Shown here in pieces: positions 6,274 to 11,510 of a stretch of DNA of 11,510 nucleotides; position 1 is the first letter of the stretch; each line of letters opens with the position of its first letter. The notes beneath the pieces are model-generated. The model was not told where the DNA came from. It was given only the letters and a program-made list of their open reading frames with translations, and made no database searches. Origin of the DNA: an uncultured Ruminococcus sp. (GTDB taxonomy: Bacteria; Bacillota; Clostridia; Oscillospirales; Acutalibacteraceae); NCBI GenBank assembly GCA_905234305.1, contig CAJOHT010000014.1, forward strand, positions 1 through 11,510. Direction: 5' to 3'. The translations under genes and the position numbers were made by a program.

Positions 6274-7056
6274 TCAGTATTCGTCATACAAAAAATCCGC
6301 CCAGTAATACTGGCTCATATACTCGTTTTGGTAAGAGTTTACGGCGCCCGCGTCAAGCTCCTTGAAGCGGTAATAGTCGCAGTCGAGCGTCTCTACGTTT
6401 ACGGCTAAAGCGTTGTAGCTTTTTACAATAGCGCTTTCGGCGCCGATTTTCTTAAGGCTTTTTATCATAGCCGCGATAAGCGTTTGCAGGTAACTCTGCT
6501 GTTTCTTATCGTAGGGCTCGTCCTCGAAAAGCGCCGCGGCGATTTCACGCGTAGAGCAGGAGCTTCCGTGACGGTGGACGAGATAGGCGAAAATCTCCTT
6601 TGAACGGCTTCTTTCAAAATGTACGTTTTTGCCTTCGGGAGTAAATACGTCGAAATTGCCGAAGCATTGTACTCTTAAAAGCGAGTTGTCCTTTGGGATA
6701 ACGGGGAAGCGCAGGTCGTTAAGCTCGCTTTCTACAGCTTCTTTAGTGACAGGCTTCATAATATAACCGCTGGCGTGCAGGCGCATAGCGTCGCCCGTGT
6801 ATTCGGAAAAGCCCGTTACAAAAATTATATTCATCTTGGGATTAATCTTTTTAAGCTCGGCGGCGAGTTCGACTCCCGTCATACCGCTCATATGTATGTC
6901 GAGAAAAGCAATGTCACAGCCGTTTTTCTTAGCGTCCTCAAGCAACTCGTCAGGATATTCAAACGAAACCGTTTCCGCGTCGGGTTTAGCTTCATTTACG
7001 GCTGTCTCAAGCATTTGGAGCATTAACGGTTCGTCATCAACACATAGTATTCTCAT
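6274..7056 (-). CDS. Response regulator, receiver plus SARP-like DNA-binding domain
   Basis: This 260-residue cytoplasmic regulator is the partner of the kinase at 7056-8471. Residues 1-118 form a CheY-like receiver with the acidic pair Asp7/Asp8, phospho-acceptor Asp53 (FLDIHMSG), Thr81 and Lys101-Pro102. From about residue 126 comes an OmpR/SARP-like winged helix (LRVQCFGNFDVF, then SRSKEIFAYLVHRHG) and a short helical tail ending near YMSQYYWADFL, a pattern I know from SARP/BTAD-type regulators of Lachnospiraceae and Ruminococcaceae. It is not a LytTR domain, which LytS-type kinases more often pair with. The start ATG overlaps the kinase stop (TAATG), with AAGGAG at 7069-7064. The nearest candidate targets are the divergent HAD lipoprotein gene and its own operon, which is inference only. 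Confidence 0.9.
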   Translation of the reverse strand: MRILCVDDEPLMLQMLETAVNEAKPDAETVSFEYPDELLEDAKKNGCDIAFLDIHMSGMTGVELAAELKKINPKMNIIFVTGFSEYTGDAMRLHASGYIMKPVTKEAVESELNDLRFPVIPKDNSLLRVQCFGNFDVFTPEGKNVHFERSRSKEIFAYLVHRHGSSCSTREIAAALFEDEPYDKKQQSYLQTLIAAMIKSLKKIGAESAIVKSYNALAVNVETLDCDYYRFKELDAGAVNSYQNEYMSQYYWADFLYDEY

Positions 7057-8471
7057 TATTTTTCTCCTTTATTATTCTTTTTTGGAATCATAATCTTTGC
7101 TGTTGTACCTTCGCCGATTACGCTTTCAATTATAACTTCGGCACCGCACATTTCTTTAAGACGGCGCTTTATATTATCCATACCTATATGAGAGCGTCCG
7201 TCGTCCTTTTTTTCGTTGATGTTAAATCCAACGCCGTCGTCCGAGACTGTTACCTCATATGAGTTATCGTTTTCTTTAGTGGCGATCGTGAGCGTGCCTC
7301 CGCCTTTTTTCTTGCTTAAGCCGTGTTTTACGGCATTTTCGGCGAGAGGCTGGATCGTAAGCTGAGGCAGTTCAAAATCAGTCGCCTGAATATCGTATTC
7401 TATGTTGAGTTTTTTACCGAAACGCAGTTTTTCGATGTATAAGTATTTTTTTAAATGTTCCAGTTCCTTTTCAAAGGGTATCGGAGTTGTCTGCTTTAAG
7501 GAGTCCATATTGCCCCTTAGGTACTGCGCGAAAGTTATAGTCGCTTTGTTGGCGGTATCGGGGTCTAGTTTACAGAGCATAGCTATTGAGCTTAACGCGT
7601 TGTACATAAAGTGAGGCTGGATTTGGCTGACCATTACTCTGACCTTGGACTCGTAAAGCTCCTTTTCTGCGGCGATAAGCGCCTGCTCGCGTTTAGCTAC
7701 GACTACGCCGAATATAAGTACGATTGAAATCATCATAGCGGCGAATTCCGTTGTAAGCCCGTAGGAGTACCCCGTAATAAACTGGTTGGCTACTGGTATG
7801 AGTACGAACGAGGCAGTAATAAGCCTCTCTTTTACGGGTGTTTTTGAGATAATAAAGCCTATTATAACTATTATAAGTCCTATCGCTAAGTAGGTCTGGC
7901 TCCACATAAACAGCGGTTCGCGGTGATATACACCCTCGCTGTCTACGCTGAAAAACAGCGGCACAAAGAAGTTTATAATACAGGAAACAAGCGTCGGGAT
8001 AAGAAGGATGTTCATAATATAATTCGCTAAGTTACCGAACTTTCCCTTAAGCTCCAGAGCCGTAAATACATACCGCCATAAAAAGAATATGAGCATTGTC
8101 GAACCAGTGTAGTTTAAGATATTGACGACGGTATTCAAGTCTTTTAGTTCCTTTATGCCCTGAACAATCCAGCAACTAATGTCCGTAAAAAGTACGAATG
8201 AGGTGGCGGATATTAGCAGAGCGAAGGTGCGGGTGTATTCGCTGAAGCCTTCCTTATCCTGAGCGATACTGTACAAAAGCACGGTACATACCGCCATACT
8301 GACTATATCGGCGCCAAGATTGAAAACAGAGGTGTTCGCCATACCTGAAAAGCCCCTGATACGGCACATCACAATCGAGCATACGGTAAGAATAAGGGAT
8401 ATGATAAAGCACAGCTGAGTTACCCATTTTTGTCTGTTCCAAAAATCGTTTATCTTCGATACGATATCCAC
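7056..8471 (-). CDS. LytS-type membrane sensor histidine kinase
   Basis: This 471-residue kinase has about seven or eight membrane helices in its first 260 residues (near 17-36, 53-72, 82-102, 118-135, 152-172, 191-209, 217-237 and 243-260). A short coiled linker and a His_kinase/HATPase catalytic region follow. The phospho-acceptor is His287 in QIQPHFMYNAL. The N-box is PLAENAVKHG (375-384), the G1 box SDDGVGF (410-416) and the second glycine block HIGMDNIKRRL. All catalytic motifs are intact. The sensing part is membrane-embedded, with no large extracellular domain, so the ligand is unknown. The start is a GTG at 8471, chosen because AAGGAG (8486-8481) precedes it by nine bases. The stop overlaps the regulator start, giving coupled translation of a two-component pair. 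Confidence 0.92.
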   Translation of the reverse strand: MDIVSKINDFWNRQKWVTQLCFIISLILTVCSIVMCRIRGFSGMANTSVFNLGADIVSMAVCTVLLYSIAQDKEGFSEYTRTFALLISATSFVLFTDISCWIVQGIKELKDLNTVVNILNYTGSTMLIFFLWRYVFTALELKGKFGNLANYIMNILLIPTLVSCIINFFVPLFFSVDSEGVYHREPLFMWSQTYLAIGLIIVIIGFIISKTPVKERLITASFVLIPVANQFITGYSYGLTTEFAAMMISIVLIFGVVVAKREQALIAAEKELYESKVRVMVSQIQPHFMYNALSSIAMLCKLDPDTANKATITFAQYLRGNMDSLKQTTPIPFEKELEHLKKYLYIEKLRFGKKLNIEYDIQATDFELPQLTIQPLAENAVKHGLSKKKGGGTLTIATKENDNSYEVTVSDDGVGFNINEKKDDGRSHIGMDNIKRRLKEMCGAEVIIESVIGEGTTAKIMIPKKNNKGEK

Positions 8472-9829: not shown

Positions 9830-9858
9830 TTGACATTTTTAAAAAAGCGATTTATACT
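9830..9858 (+). promoter_or_regulatory. Consensus promoter of the paaK leader transcript
   Basis: A perfect TTGACA at 9830-9835 and TATACT at 9853-9858 are 17 bases apart, the best promoter in the window. Transcription should start near 9865. The transcript would carry about 230 bases of leader before paaK, including a short ORF and a terminator. Confidence 0.85.
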
Positions 9859-9865
9859 ATTACCA

Positions 9866-9875
9866 CGTTGCAACG
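9866..9875. promoter_or_regulatory. Palindrome CGTTGCAACG at the predicted transcription start
   Basis: This perfect 10 bp palindrome begins seven bases past the -10 box, so it covers the predicted start site. That is a typical place for a repressor operator. The binding protein is unknown, and a palindrome this short can also arise by chance. Confidence 0.35.
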
Positions 9876-9914
9876 CTAAAGTGTAAAAATATTAACTTTG
9901 TTTAAGGAACAGTT

Positions 9915-10004
9915 ATGAAAAGAACTCTTAATTCTAAAAACAACTTCAGCTTTACATTTAACTTTACTTGGTTTTATGCAAGTAGGGTTAATTTGCTATG
10001 CTGA
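9915..10004 (+). CDS. Leader peptide of 29 residues, rich in Phe, Trp and Tyr
   Basis: An ATG at 9915 follows AAGGA (9904-9908) at normal spacing and opens a 29-codon frame ending in TGA at 10002-10004. Residues 11-21 contain Phe11, Phe13, Phe15, Phe17, Trp19, Phe20 and Tyr21, so seven of eleven are aromatic. The frame lies between a consensus promoter and a strong terminator that precedes paaK. This is the design of amino-acid attenuation leaders such as that of pheA in enteric bacteria. The peptide itself probably has no function; its translation would act as the sensor. A 6 bp hairpin, TACTTG (9965-9970) with CAAGTA (9979-9984), overlaps the aromatic codons and would be opened by a stalled ribosome. 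Confidence 0.6.
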   Translation: MKRTLNSKNNFSFTFNFTWFYASRVNLLC

Positions 10005-10054
10005 TGAATGAGGATTAAGATTAGTTAATCAACATTGGGTGTGGCTCATTAACC
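9965..10054 (+). promoter_or_regulatory. Alternative pairings, candidate antiterminator
   Basis: Several short complements compete with the terminator. ATGAG at 10008-10012, just past the leader stop codon, pairs with CTCAT at 10045-10049 in the left terminator arm. GGTTAAT at 9986-9992 pairs with ATTAACC at 10048-10054, the arm end and loop. GATTAA at 10013-10018 pairs with TTAATC at 10025-10030 and would fill the antiterminator interior. A ribosome resting at the leader stop would cover 10008-10012 and let the terminator form. One stalled on aromatic codons would leave it free. No folding energy has been computed. Confidence 0.45.
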
Positions 10055-10076
10055 GTGAGCTACACCCTTTTTTTTT
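10037..10076 (+). terminator. Strong terminator directly before paaK (attenuator)
   Basis: Arms 10037-10049 (GGGTGTGGCTCAT) and 10055-10067 (GTGAGCTACACCC) form a 13 bp stem with two G-U pairs and a 5-base loop. Nine T follow at 10068-10076. It ends 19 bases before the paaK start codon, so most transcripts from 9830 should stop here unless it is prevented from folding. Confidence 0.9.
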
Positions 10077-10095
10077 CAGAAAGGCTATGAAAACT

Positions 10096-11400
10096 ATGAA
10101 AAACTATTACCAAAAAGAAATTGAAACAGCCTCTTACGAGGAAATCCGAAAAATCCAGAACGAAAAAATTGTAAAGCAGGTTCGTTACGTTTACGATAAT
10201 GTACCTTATTACCGCAATTTAATGGAGAAAAAGGGAGTAAGTCCCGAGGATATCAAGAGCGTGGACGATATAAAGAAGCTACCGTTCCTTACTAAGGACG
10301 ATTTAAGAGAGGCCTATCCCTACGGACTTCTCGGTACTGACCTCAAGAACTGCGTACGTATCCAGTCAACCTCGGGTACTACGGGAAAGCGCGTAGTAGC
10401 TTTCTATACTCAGAAGGATATCGATATGTGGGAGGAATGCTGCGCAAGAGCGATCGTCGCCGCTGGAGGAAGCGCTGAGGACGTTGTCCAGGTATGCTAC
10501 GGCTACGGCCTCTTCACGGGAGGCCCCGGGCTTAACGGAGGTTCACATAAGGTCGGAAGTCTGACTCTGCCTATGAGTTCGGGCAATACCGACAGACAAA
10601 TCCAGTTTATGATGGATTTAGACGCGACTATCCTATGCTGTACTCCTTCCTATGCCGCTTATATCGGCGAGTCACTGGCTGAGCGGGGCTATAAGCCCAA
10701 GGATAATAAGCTCAAGGCTGGTATCTTCGGAGCGGAGCCTTGGACTGAGGAAATGCGTCAGGGTATCGAGAAAAGCCTCGGCATAAAGGCTTATGATATC
10801 TACGGACTTACCGAAACCTCGGGCCCCGGAGTAGCTTTCGAGTGTGAGGAACAGACGGGTATGCATATTAACGAGGACCATTTCTACGCCGAGATAATCG
10901 ACCCCGATACGGGCGAAGTGCTTCCCGAGGGGGAGAAGGGCGAGCTTGTATTCACCTCGCTCGATAAGGAAGGTTTCCCGCTTTTAAGATACAGGACTAA
11001 GGATATCTGTATTCTTTCCCGTAAGAAATGTTCCTGCGGAAGGACTCACGTAAAGATGACTAAGCCGCTGGGACGTTCCGACGATATGATGATTATTCGC
11101 GGTGTTAACGTATTCCCGAGCCAGATCGAGGCTGTGCTTCTTAAGGAAGGCTACCCGCCCAACTACCAGATTGTAGTTGACCGCGTTAACAATTCCGATA
11201 CATTCGATATTTACGTTGAATGTACTCCCGACAGGTTCTCGGATAAAATTTCCGATATGCAGGCTCAGGAGAAGAAACTAAACCTTGCTATGCGTTCAAT
11301 GCTTGGCATAGGTCCGAAAATCCACCTTGTCGCTCCGAAAACAATCGAGCGCTCCGAAGGTAAAGCCGTACGTGTAATAGATAAGCGTAAGCTGCATTAA
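10096..11400 (+). CDS. paaK: Phenylacetate-CoA ligase (PaaK-like adenylate-forming enzyme)
   Basis: The enzyme activates phenylacetate or a related aryl acid to its CoA thioester with ATP, in the cytoplasm. The 434 residues fit the usual 430-440 of the family. Seen motifs are the P-loop STSGTTGK (91-98), YGLTE (236-240), the Cys cluster KCSCGR before the hinge, the hinge block GRSDDMMIIRGVNVFP, and the C-terminal catalytic lysine Lys423 in SEGKA. I chose the ATG at 10096 because the N-terminus then aligns with family starts and AGAAAGG lies 11 bases upstream. The ATG at 10087 has that site too close, and a frame from 10039 would read through the terminator. The gene precedes an ACT-domain gene by 21 bases, a pairing common in anaerobes. 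In Firmicutes such enzymes often serve indolepyruvate- or phenylpyruvate-linked arylacetate metabolism. Confidence 0.92.
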   Translation: MKNYYQKEIETASYEEIRKIQNEKIVKQVRYVYDNVPYYRNLMEKKGVSPEDIKSVDDIKKLPFLTKDDLREAYPYGLLGTDLKNCVRIQSTSGTTGKRVVAFYTQKDIDMWEECCARAIVAAGGSAEDVVQVCYGYGLFTGGPGLNGGSHKVGSLTLPMSSGNTDRQIQFMMDLDATILCCTPSYAAYIGESLAERGYKPKDNKLKAGIFGAEPWTEEMRQGIEKSLGIKAYDIYGLTETSGPGVAFECEEQTGMHINEDHFYAEIIDPDTGEVLPEGEKGELVFTSLDKEGFPLLRYRTKDICILSRKKCSCGRTHVKMTKPLGRSDDMMIIRGVNVFPSQIEAVLLKEGYPPNYQIVVDRVNNSDTFDIYVECTPDRFSDKISDMQAQEKKLNLAMRSMLGIGPKIHLVAPKTIERSEGKAVRVIDKRKLH

Positions 11401-11421: not shown

Positions 11422-11510
11422 ATGGCTATAACACAATTATCCGCGTTTTTGGAGAATACATCAGGCACGCTTTATGACGCGCTTTGCGCTGTTACAGAGG
11501 CGGGAGTTAA
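11422..11510 (+). CDS. ACT-domain protein, 5' part only
   Basis: An ATG at 11422, with AGGAGG at 11410-11415, opens a frame running off the window. The 29 complete codons read MAITQLSAFLENTSG then TLYDALCAVTEAGV. This is the start of the stand-alone ACT protein often found next to PaaK (a tandem-ACT small protein, usually about 140 residues). ACT domains bind amino acids, so it may sense an aromatic amino acid and act on the ligase or its pathway. It is separated from paaK by 21 bases and is clearly co-transcribed. Confidence 0.85.
   Translation, partial: MAITQLSAFLENTSGTLYDALCAVTEAGV

Follow-up and report, generated by a model that had tools for sequence, protein, structure and literature searches.

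The enteric pheA, trp, and his genes are controlled by leader-peptide attenuators, and T-boxes are the better-known solution in Clostridia. The element described here is a candidate attenuator of the leader-peptide kind, located before a gene for a paaK-type aryl-CoA ligase (referred to as paaK) and a gene for an ACT protein in an uncultured Ruminococcus sp. The window, i.e. the whole stretch of DNA analyzed, comprises 11,510 nucleotides of contig CAJOHT010000014.1 (C14) in assembly GCA_905234305.1 (G000; 1.58 Mb, 92% complete); G, C, and L handles denote genomes, contigs, and loci. As in the enteric attenuators, a leader open reading frame (ORF) with control codons is combined with the hairpins 1:2, 2:3, and 3:4 and with a stop codon placed for the masking of segment 2. 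The locus differs from these systems in that it matches no Rfam family, belongs to Clostridia and not to Proteobacteria, and targets an aryl-CoA ligase, and in that one module serves aroF, aroG-pheA, paaK, and a trpB-like gene.

Leader peptides of Firmicutes are also described for hisS/hisZ of bacilli, where His leaders occur in places in which relatives carry a T-box (PMC2965389), and for Staphylococcus aureus, where a peptide rich in Leu codons precedes the ilv operon of branched-chain synthesis (PMC5794164). The former resemble the present element by description and differ in amino acid, genes, and clade; the latter shares the codon-rich leader, whereas its codons and its operon are others. 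The T-box (RF00230) found before paaK in relatives has gene, position, and, where seen, the UUC specifier in common with the leader, and is likewise expected to be on when tRNA for phenylalanine (Phe) is uncharged, whereas it binds tRNA directly, has no leader ORF, and is an unrelated RNA. The kind of mechanism is classical; its target, lineage, and shared module are undescribed in the literature searched. The initial annotation of this DNA knew of no attenuator of this kind on paaK, and neither a leader attenuator nor a T-box on a phenylacetate-CoA ligase gene turned up in that literature (most subscription journals lay outside it, and one search refers to the matches listed). With a probability of roughly 0.9, judged from sequence, the element is a ribosome-mediated attenuator of the paaK-ACT operon whose signal is charged tRNA-Phe and perhaps tRNA-Trp as well.

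Anatomy of the leader and its competing folds

The promoter-like site, the 29-codon ORF with a normal ribosome site, the seven aromatic codons among codons 11 to 21, and the strong terminator 19 bases before the paaK ATG (10087) are present as initially annotated (Table 1). Likewise found are the features that characterize the attenuator class: a short ORF before the terminator (a ribosome site was not found by script in L089 and L118), a terminator before the first structural gene, an antiterminator that excludes it, and a 1:2 hairpin over the control codons. The stop codon (10002-10004) lies directly behind segment 2, as expected if a ribosome finishing the leader masks this segment. Of the 21 paaK leaders in the set, 20 were tested (window counted), and 16 have a TTGACA site scoring 10-12 of 12 that begins 79-114 bases 5' of the ATG of the leader ORF; all 7 aroF leaders tested (17 in the genus) have one 56-74 bases 5' of it, both counts being without a shuffle control.

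Table 1. Predicted features of the leader and the genes behind it (window coordinates).
Feature	Position	Strand	Evidence
Sigma-70-type promoter-like site TTGACA-17-TATACT (predicted)	9830..9858	+	11/12 match
Ribosome site AAGGAA of the leader ORF, ending 5 bases 5' of ATG	9904..9909	+	sequence
Leader ORF, 29 codons, MKRTLNSKNNFSFTFNFTWFYASRVNLLC	9915..10004	+	ORF reading; homologues
Control codons F11 F13 F15 F17 W19 F20 Y21	9945..9977	+	ORF reading; alignments A1, A2
1:2 hairpin (9958-9970 with 9979-9991), over control codons	9958..9991	+	folding, covariation
2:3 antiterminator, 5' arm (GGTTAAT-TT-GCTATGCT)	9986..10002	+	folding, covariation
2:3 antiterminator, 3' arm (GGTGTGGC-TC-ATTAACC)	10038..10054	+	folding, covariation
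3:4 intrinsic terminator: stem-loop 10037-10067 (13 pairs), then nine T	10037..10076	+	terminator search, folding, covariation
paaK-type aryl-CoA ligase, 437 amino acids from first ATG	10087..11400	+	AMP-binding_C_2, AMP-binding
ACT-protein gene, start, running off the window	11422..11510	+	sequence

The antiterminator consists of 15 pairs, 9986-9992 with 10048-10054 and 9995-10002 with 10038-10045, separated by a 2x2 internal loop. One of the two competing complements proposed initially (9986-9992 with 10048-10054) is hereby retained as the outer seven pairs of a longer helix, and the other (10008-10012 with 10045-10049) was rejected, being outside the conserved structure. The leader is far more stable than expected for its composition (9865-10076, z -5.7; 9992-10076, z -5.3; none of 200 shuffles as stable), which is due mostly to the terminator. 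Upstream of the latter, the excess is less marked, with z -1.5 for 9865-10014 (19 of 200 shuffles as stable) and z -3.0 for 9950-10036 (1 of 200).

Folding with and without the footprint of a stalled ribosome yields the antiterminator in nascent RNA up to 10062 when segment 1 is masked. When the bases up to 9975, 9980, or 9984 are masked, all 14 antiterminator pairs counted form in RNA that stops at 10054, 10058, or 10062; at RNA end 10054, the masked fold reaches -22.7 kcal/mol including a nested hairpin (antiterminator helix alone -13.9), compared with -22.0 for 3:4. Masking to 9987 leaves 12 of the 14 pairs, masking to 9990 leaves 7, and without masking 1:2 coexists with the inner half of the antiterminator in the computed fold. 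The downstream footprint of a ribosome spans 12-15 bases. Stalls at the Phe codons, and perhaps at Trp19, should therefore work according to this model, and a stall at Tyr21 is expected to do so poorly, since masking to 9987 or 9990 costs antiterminator pairs.

In the proposed mechanism, transcription would start shortly after 9858, and a ribosome would translate the leader behind the polymerase. With ample Phe, it would reach the stop codon, its footprint would mask segment 2, 3:4 would form, and transcription would end before paaK. With charged tRNA-Phe in short supply, a ribosome stalled at F11-F20 would cover segment 1 and free segment 2 (9979-10002) for pairing with 10038-10054. The antiterminator could form before the 3' arm of the terminator is made, and paaK-ACT would be transcribed. 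The ligase would then activate phenylacetate, and an indolepyruvate-type ferredoxin oxidoreductase (IorAB) would carboxylate it to phenylpyruvate for Phe synthesis.

Conservation, gene targets, and amino-acid signal

Related leaders were found in four sets of genomes, the counts leaving out 22-36-base matches of the DNA search (L050-L057, L060-L062). Among 161 genomes of the genus, 17 yielded strong leaders in the DNA search (19 in all; E 8e-9 or better) and 18 yielded strong matches to a covariance model (20 in all; E 5e-20 or better). Three of these 20 precede paaK (G000, G087, G122) and 17 precede aroF, with both kinds in G087 and G122; the aroF product is a 3-deoxy-D-arabino-heptulosonate 7-phosphate (DAHP) synthase (family search, one of the 17), and the aroF leader peptides of the genus approximate MxxxLNxxNNFSFTFSFTxFTxGRVNLLC. 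In 398 genomes of the family, the covariance model found the leader before paaK in two further genera (L088, L089; L090, L091); before aroF, it gave weaker matches that are plausible as aromatic leaders (L093, L095, L096). Its matches L083, L084, L085, and L094 were taken as chance, their aromatic ORFs not being convincing. A neighboring type of element was seen in the same family at L092 (G279:C22, 93-207), where an Ile/Val-rich leader ORF, MIFNLFVSLIVVVISIIVISGSVSSRYADKR, and a terminator precede a thiamine pyrophosphate enzyme resembling acetolactate synthase; its sequence makes a branched-chain leader attenuator likely.

Named genomes were scanned with a pattern, which matched 36 stretches; 34 of these hold an aromatic-rich ORF with 4 to 7 Phe codons each: 18 before paaK, 14 before aroF (13 labelled by script, plus L122, which is cut short and whose leader equals that of L037), one before aroG-pheA (L109), and one before a TrpB-like gene (L120, with two Trp codons). 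The genes at L109 encode an aroG-type DAHP synthase followed by a chorismate mutase-prephenate dehydratase (family search). The genomes are assemblies of Clostridia, 14 of the 36 bearing the title Ruminococcus; those whose titles name a source come from rumen or gut, and several of the genomes also occur in the genus or family sets; two matches in Rhodobacteraceae (L098, L107), without an aromatic-rich ORF, were taken as chance. In 394 genomes of the order, a second model built on 30 leaders matched in 18, the window and G033 among them; the other matches precede, with genes named by reading, four TrpB-like genes, seven aroF genes (L163-L166, L168-L170), and one transporter-like gene (L161), and four (L167, L171, L173, L174), whose aromatic ORFs are not convincing, were taken as chance. 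The leaders before the TrpB-like genes (L159, L160, L162, L172) are rich in Trp and Phe codons. Together with L120, they form a set of Trp/Phe/Tyr-rich leaders with a segment 2 like that of the window, in which the L120 gene alone was identified by family search. When 28 loci flanking iorAB-paaK in relatives or flanking aroC were put through the R1 search, the leader of the window and two weak places in the window contig came up, and nothing else.

All three helices show compensatory changes. In 19 leaders of the genus, 1:2 is paired in 92.7% of the alignment cells (12 double-change cells), 2:3 in 93.3% (8), and 3:4 in 96.0% (12). In the 21 paaK leaders of alignment A2 (20 distinct), the values are 96.3% (18), 95.0% (7), and 97.1% (14), and in 30 mixed leaders 2:3 is paired in 94.0% (14). 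In none of 500 shuffles was the observed pairing percentage or double-change cell count reached, for any of these helices and alignments, and versions of the helices slid against each other pair in 24-65% of cells (28-45% for 2:3). Each stretch folded alone, the three hairpins form in 21 of the 21 A2 leaders. Double changes in 2:3 are nearly all at two pairs, T9989-A10051, which changes jointly to C-G, and A9990-T10050, which changes to G-C or G-U; one more cell is at 9991-10049 (loop edge) and one in the inner helix. These two pairs are the most telling, since their 3' bases sit in the loop of the terminator, where the terminator gives no reason for covariation. A C at 9989, seen in 4 of 19 genus leaders, abolishes the 1:2 pair with A9960 and leaves the 2:3 pair in place. 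The pair 9992-10048 is missing in 17 of the 30 mixed rows.

These data bear on one alternative, a constitutive terminator behind a fortuitous small ORF without any regulation. Terminator-like sites alone are not rare in the window (4 found, 2.1 expected), and an aromatic cluster of at least seven codons in 11 arises by itself in 2 of 1000 dinucleotide shuffles. Against this explanation stand codons conserved over several genera and the covariation of three helices, of which two exclude each other; the covariation largely disfavors it, and it is regarded as extremely improbable. The initial annotation had likewise interpreted the element as an attenuator of the paaK-ACT operon; this interpretation is supported by homologues with conserved aromatic ORFs and three compensated helices, with a longer antiterminator and with the module also occurring on aroF, aroG-pheA, and trpB-like genes. 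Homologous leaders were checked for a missing ORF or freely varying aromatic content, and no refutation came from them.

The signal was initially assigned to aromatic amino acids in general. For Phe, this holds: its codons are kept at conserved places, with 5-7 per paaK or aroF leader (ORF as chosen by script; read from the nearest ATG, the leader of L127/L039 has four Phe and a Tyr). Trp codons occur in 11 of the 21 A2 leaders (displaced in L110) and in no aroF leader of the genus, and Tyr at codon 21 is confined to the window in alignments A1 and A2. The codon alignments thus support Phe, rather than aromatic amino acids generally, as the conserved signal. A general aromatic sensor, in which the Trp and Tyr codons of the window matter as much as those for Phe, would agree with the share of A2 leaders that have Trp and with the Trp- and Tyr-rich trpB-like leaders; it is considered unlikely, because Trp is absent from the aroF leaders of the genus and from 10 of 18 paaK leaders in one comparison, and because a ribosome halted at the window-specific Tyr21 should mask part of segment 2 (12 or 7 pairs left).

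T-boxes before related paaK genes and weighing of the attenuator reading

Some relatives of the paaK gene carry an unrelated switch at this place. The search of 16 genus loci revealed a T-box between iorB and paaK at three of them (L019, L020, L029). In the family, the 30 paaK loci nearest to that of the window were taken irrespective of leader and examined over 1.5 kb upstream. Four of them (at least 90% identity, window counted) have the Phe leader, weak opposite-strand matches at L175, L178, L179, and L203 (E 0.004-0.8) being left out of the count, and nine have a T-box (L186, L189, L190, L193, L195-L198, L202; the last with 92.3 bits slightly below the 93-bit cut-off). The specifier region reads GAA-UUC in 11 of the 12 paaK T-boxes, those with an alignment seen, so the specifier is apparently UUC and Phe-specific; the specifier spacing given in PMC2494555 allows another register. 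At L111, the leader between iorB and paaK occupies the exact T-box position of its relatives. For hisS, T-boxes and leader peptides are known to replace each other (PMC2965389). The main text of the 2008 T-box survey (PMC2494555) does not contain paaK, iorA, or phenylacetate, and an Rfam search of 19 regions, most extending upstream of iorA, returned just two T-boxes, both among those above.

The T-boxes before other close paaK genes raise the question of whether the window itself holds a T-box or another tRNA- or ligand-binding riboswitch instead of a translated leader. This is highly improbable: none of 4227 Rfam families, T-box RF00230 included, matches the window at gathering score, and the Phe codons belong to a reading frame that a ribosome site precedes.

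Several observations weigh against the reading of the element as a Phe attenuator of paaK. From RNA end 10066 onward, the terminator is the computed minimum at any masking; antitermination would therefore depend on the order of synthesis. Textbook attenuators show the same dependence. The ORF stops before or inside segment 2 in L090/L126, L091, and L105/L111 (the stop codon is also earlier than in the window in L120), and in L088/L104 it passes segment 2 in a different frame, the bases being unchanged. Since the frame is shifted in L088/L104 and the ORF ends early in L090, L091, L105, and L111, segment 2 is kept as RNA and not as peptide. Of the 19 genus leaders, 6 do not form the outer 1:2 pair 9959-9990 and 4 do not form the outer pair 9960-9989. 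By other measures, covariation is less distinct: shuffles reached the number of pairs with double changes in 68 of 500 (1:2) and 178 of 500 (2:3 in A2) cases, and the counts of further pair types in 245, 393, 417, and 69 of 500 (1:2 and 2:3; 417 for 2:3 in A2), and related rows inflate the shuffle-based counts. Moreover, 18 of the 21 A2 leaders were found with a pattern in which segments 2 and 3 are fixed in part, and the conservation seen in these segments is therefore to some extent a product of the selection; segments 1 and 4, the codons, and the 5' partner of TYRAYC lie outside the pattern. Finally, the leader precedes paaK in just 3 of 161 genus genomes, most paaK genes being without it, 17 of the 30 closest family loci lack both leader and T-box over the 1.5 kb examined, and the ligase scores 508 bits against the 646-bit cut-off of TIGR02155 (NCBIfam PaaK), which is why it is labelled as paaK-type.

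Operon, genome context, and direction of the pathway

An ATG at 10096 fits the start of most relatives better than the one at 10087. The ACT gene is interrupted in the assembly by an N run just past the window end (L140:2212-2259); its homologue at L005 encodes an ACT domain pair. The order iorA-iorB-paaK-ACT is seen in L005 and L020, and the tail of IorB lies upstream of paaK in most other genus loci. G000 also has a partial iorA, iorB, a second paaK-type gene (N run inside; L139), and an ACT gene on C189. In G055:C23, G039:C53, G042:C7, and others, there is a second ligase gene, about 48% identical, whose start lies about 3.7 kb away from the first gene, a distance that leaves room for iorAB. 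Elsewhere in the window (6274-8471, minus strand), a PF06580-type histidine kinase is accompanied by a response regulator without a Pfam match beyond the receiver domain.

Regarding Phe synthesis itself, prephenate dehydratase is present in nine of ten genomes and was not found in G000; aroF of the leader type is present in four of seven and was not found in G000, G175, and G386. Behind aroC, G000 has a gene read as a glycosidase, and G053 the dehydratase. Among the leader-paaK relatives, the tree places G087 nearest, and there the dehydratase gene lies just behind leader-aroF on C57. A single contig missing from the G000 assembly (92% complete) would thus account for both absences; the window genome may have lost pheA. 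TrpF was not seen in G000, and chorismate synthase is present.

A midpoint-rooted tree was built from 46 ligases, namely 17 with the leader (the remaining four of the 21 were too short) and 29 further ones of the genus; leader presence in part guided this sampling. The leader-bearing ligases fall into a single group (99/90; 98% of 200 bootstrap trees), which includes several genera and has the window beside G087. Next to it stands a single group made up of eight ligases of the same genus that lack the leader. Transfer of a cassette and an old duplicate retained by few are both possible, and the patchy occurrence of leader-paaK (3 of 161 genomes) favors transfer.

The direction in which IOR and arylacetate-CoA ligase work in gut anaerobes is under discussion, and both views are presented for Bacteroides in PMC13285125. 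The attenuator may function as proposed while ligase and IorAB act catabolically, from Phe to phenylacetate, or on exogenous aryl acids, Phe shortage then not being the physiological signal. Roles of IOR in the conversion of Phe to phenylacetate in Bacteroides thetaiotaomicron and in the fermentation of Pyrococcus are reported in the same source. It also argues that an AMP-forming ligase next to IOR fits biosynthesis; an operon turned on by uncharged tRNA-Phe would be perverse for Phe breakdown, and the same element is found on aroF and the aroG-pheA operon. This alternative is rated as improbable, though less so than an unregulated terminator or a riboswitch. As judged from its sequence features, regulation at paaK speaks for the direction of synthesis, since two unrelated Phe-starvation switches, a leader and a T-box apparently reading UUC, on close paaK genes argue for making Phe. 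Its formation from phenylacetate is described for rumen cultures (PMC7356843).

The paaK switches bear on this make-or-break question, and the finding places Phe leader attenuation, common to aroF, aroG-pheA, a trpB-like gene, and paaK, in Clostridia. It is conceivable, with somewhat less than even odds, that leader-paaK-ACT is a mobile cassette among rumen and gut Clostridia, in some of them at the place of a Phe T-box. It would then mark ligase and IorAB as a Phe-biosynthetic route induced on starvation along with aroF, drawing Phe from the phenylacetate of neighbors. The finding ties rumen phenylacetate to Phe supply.
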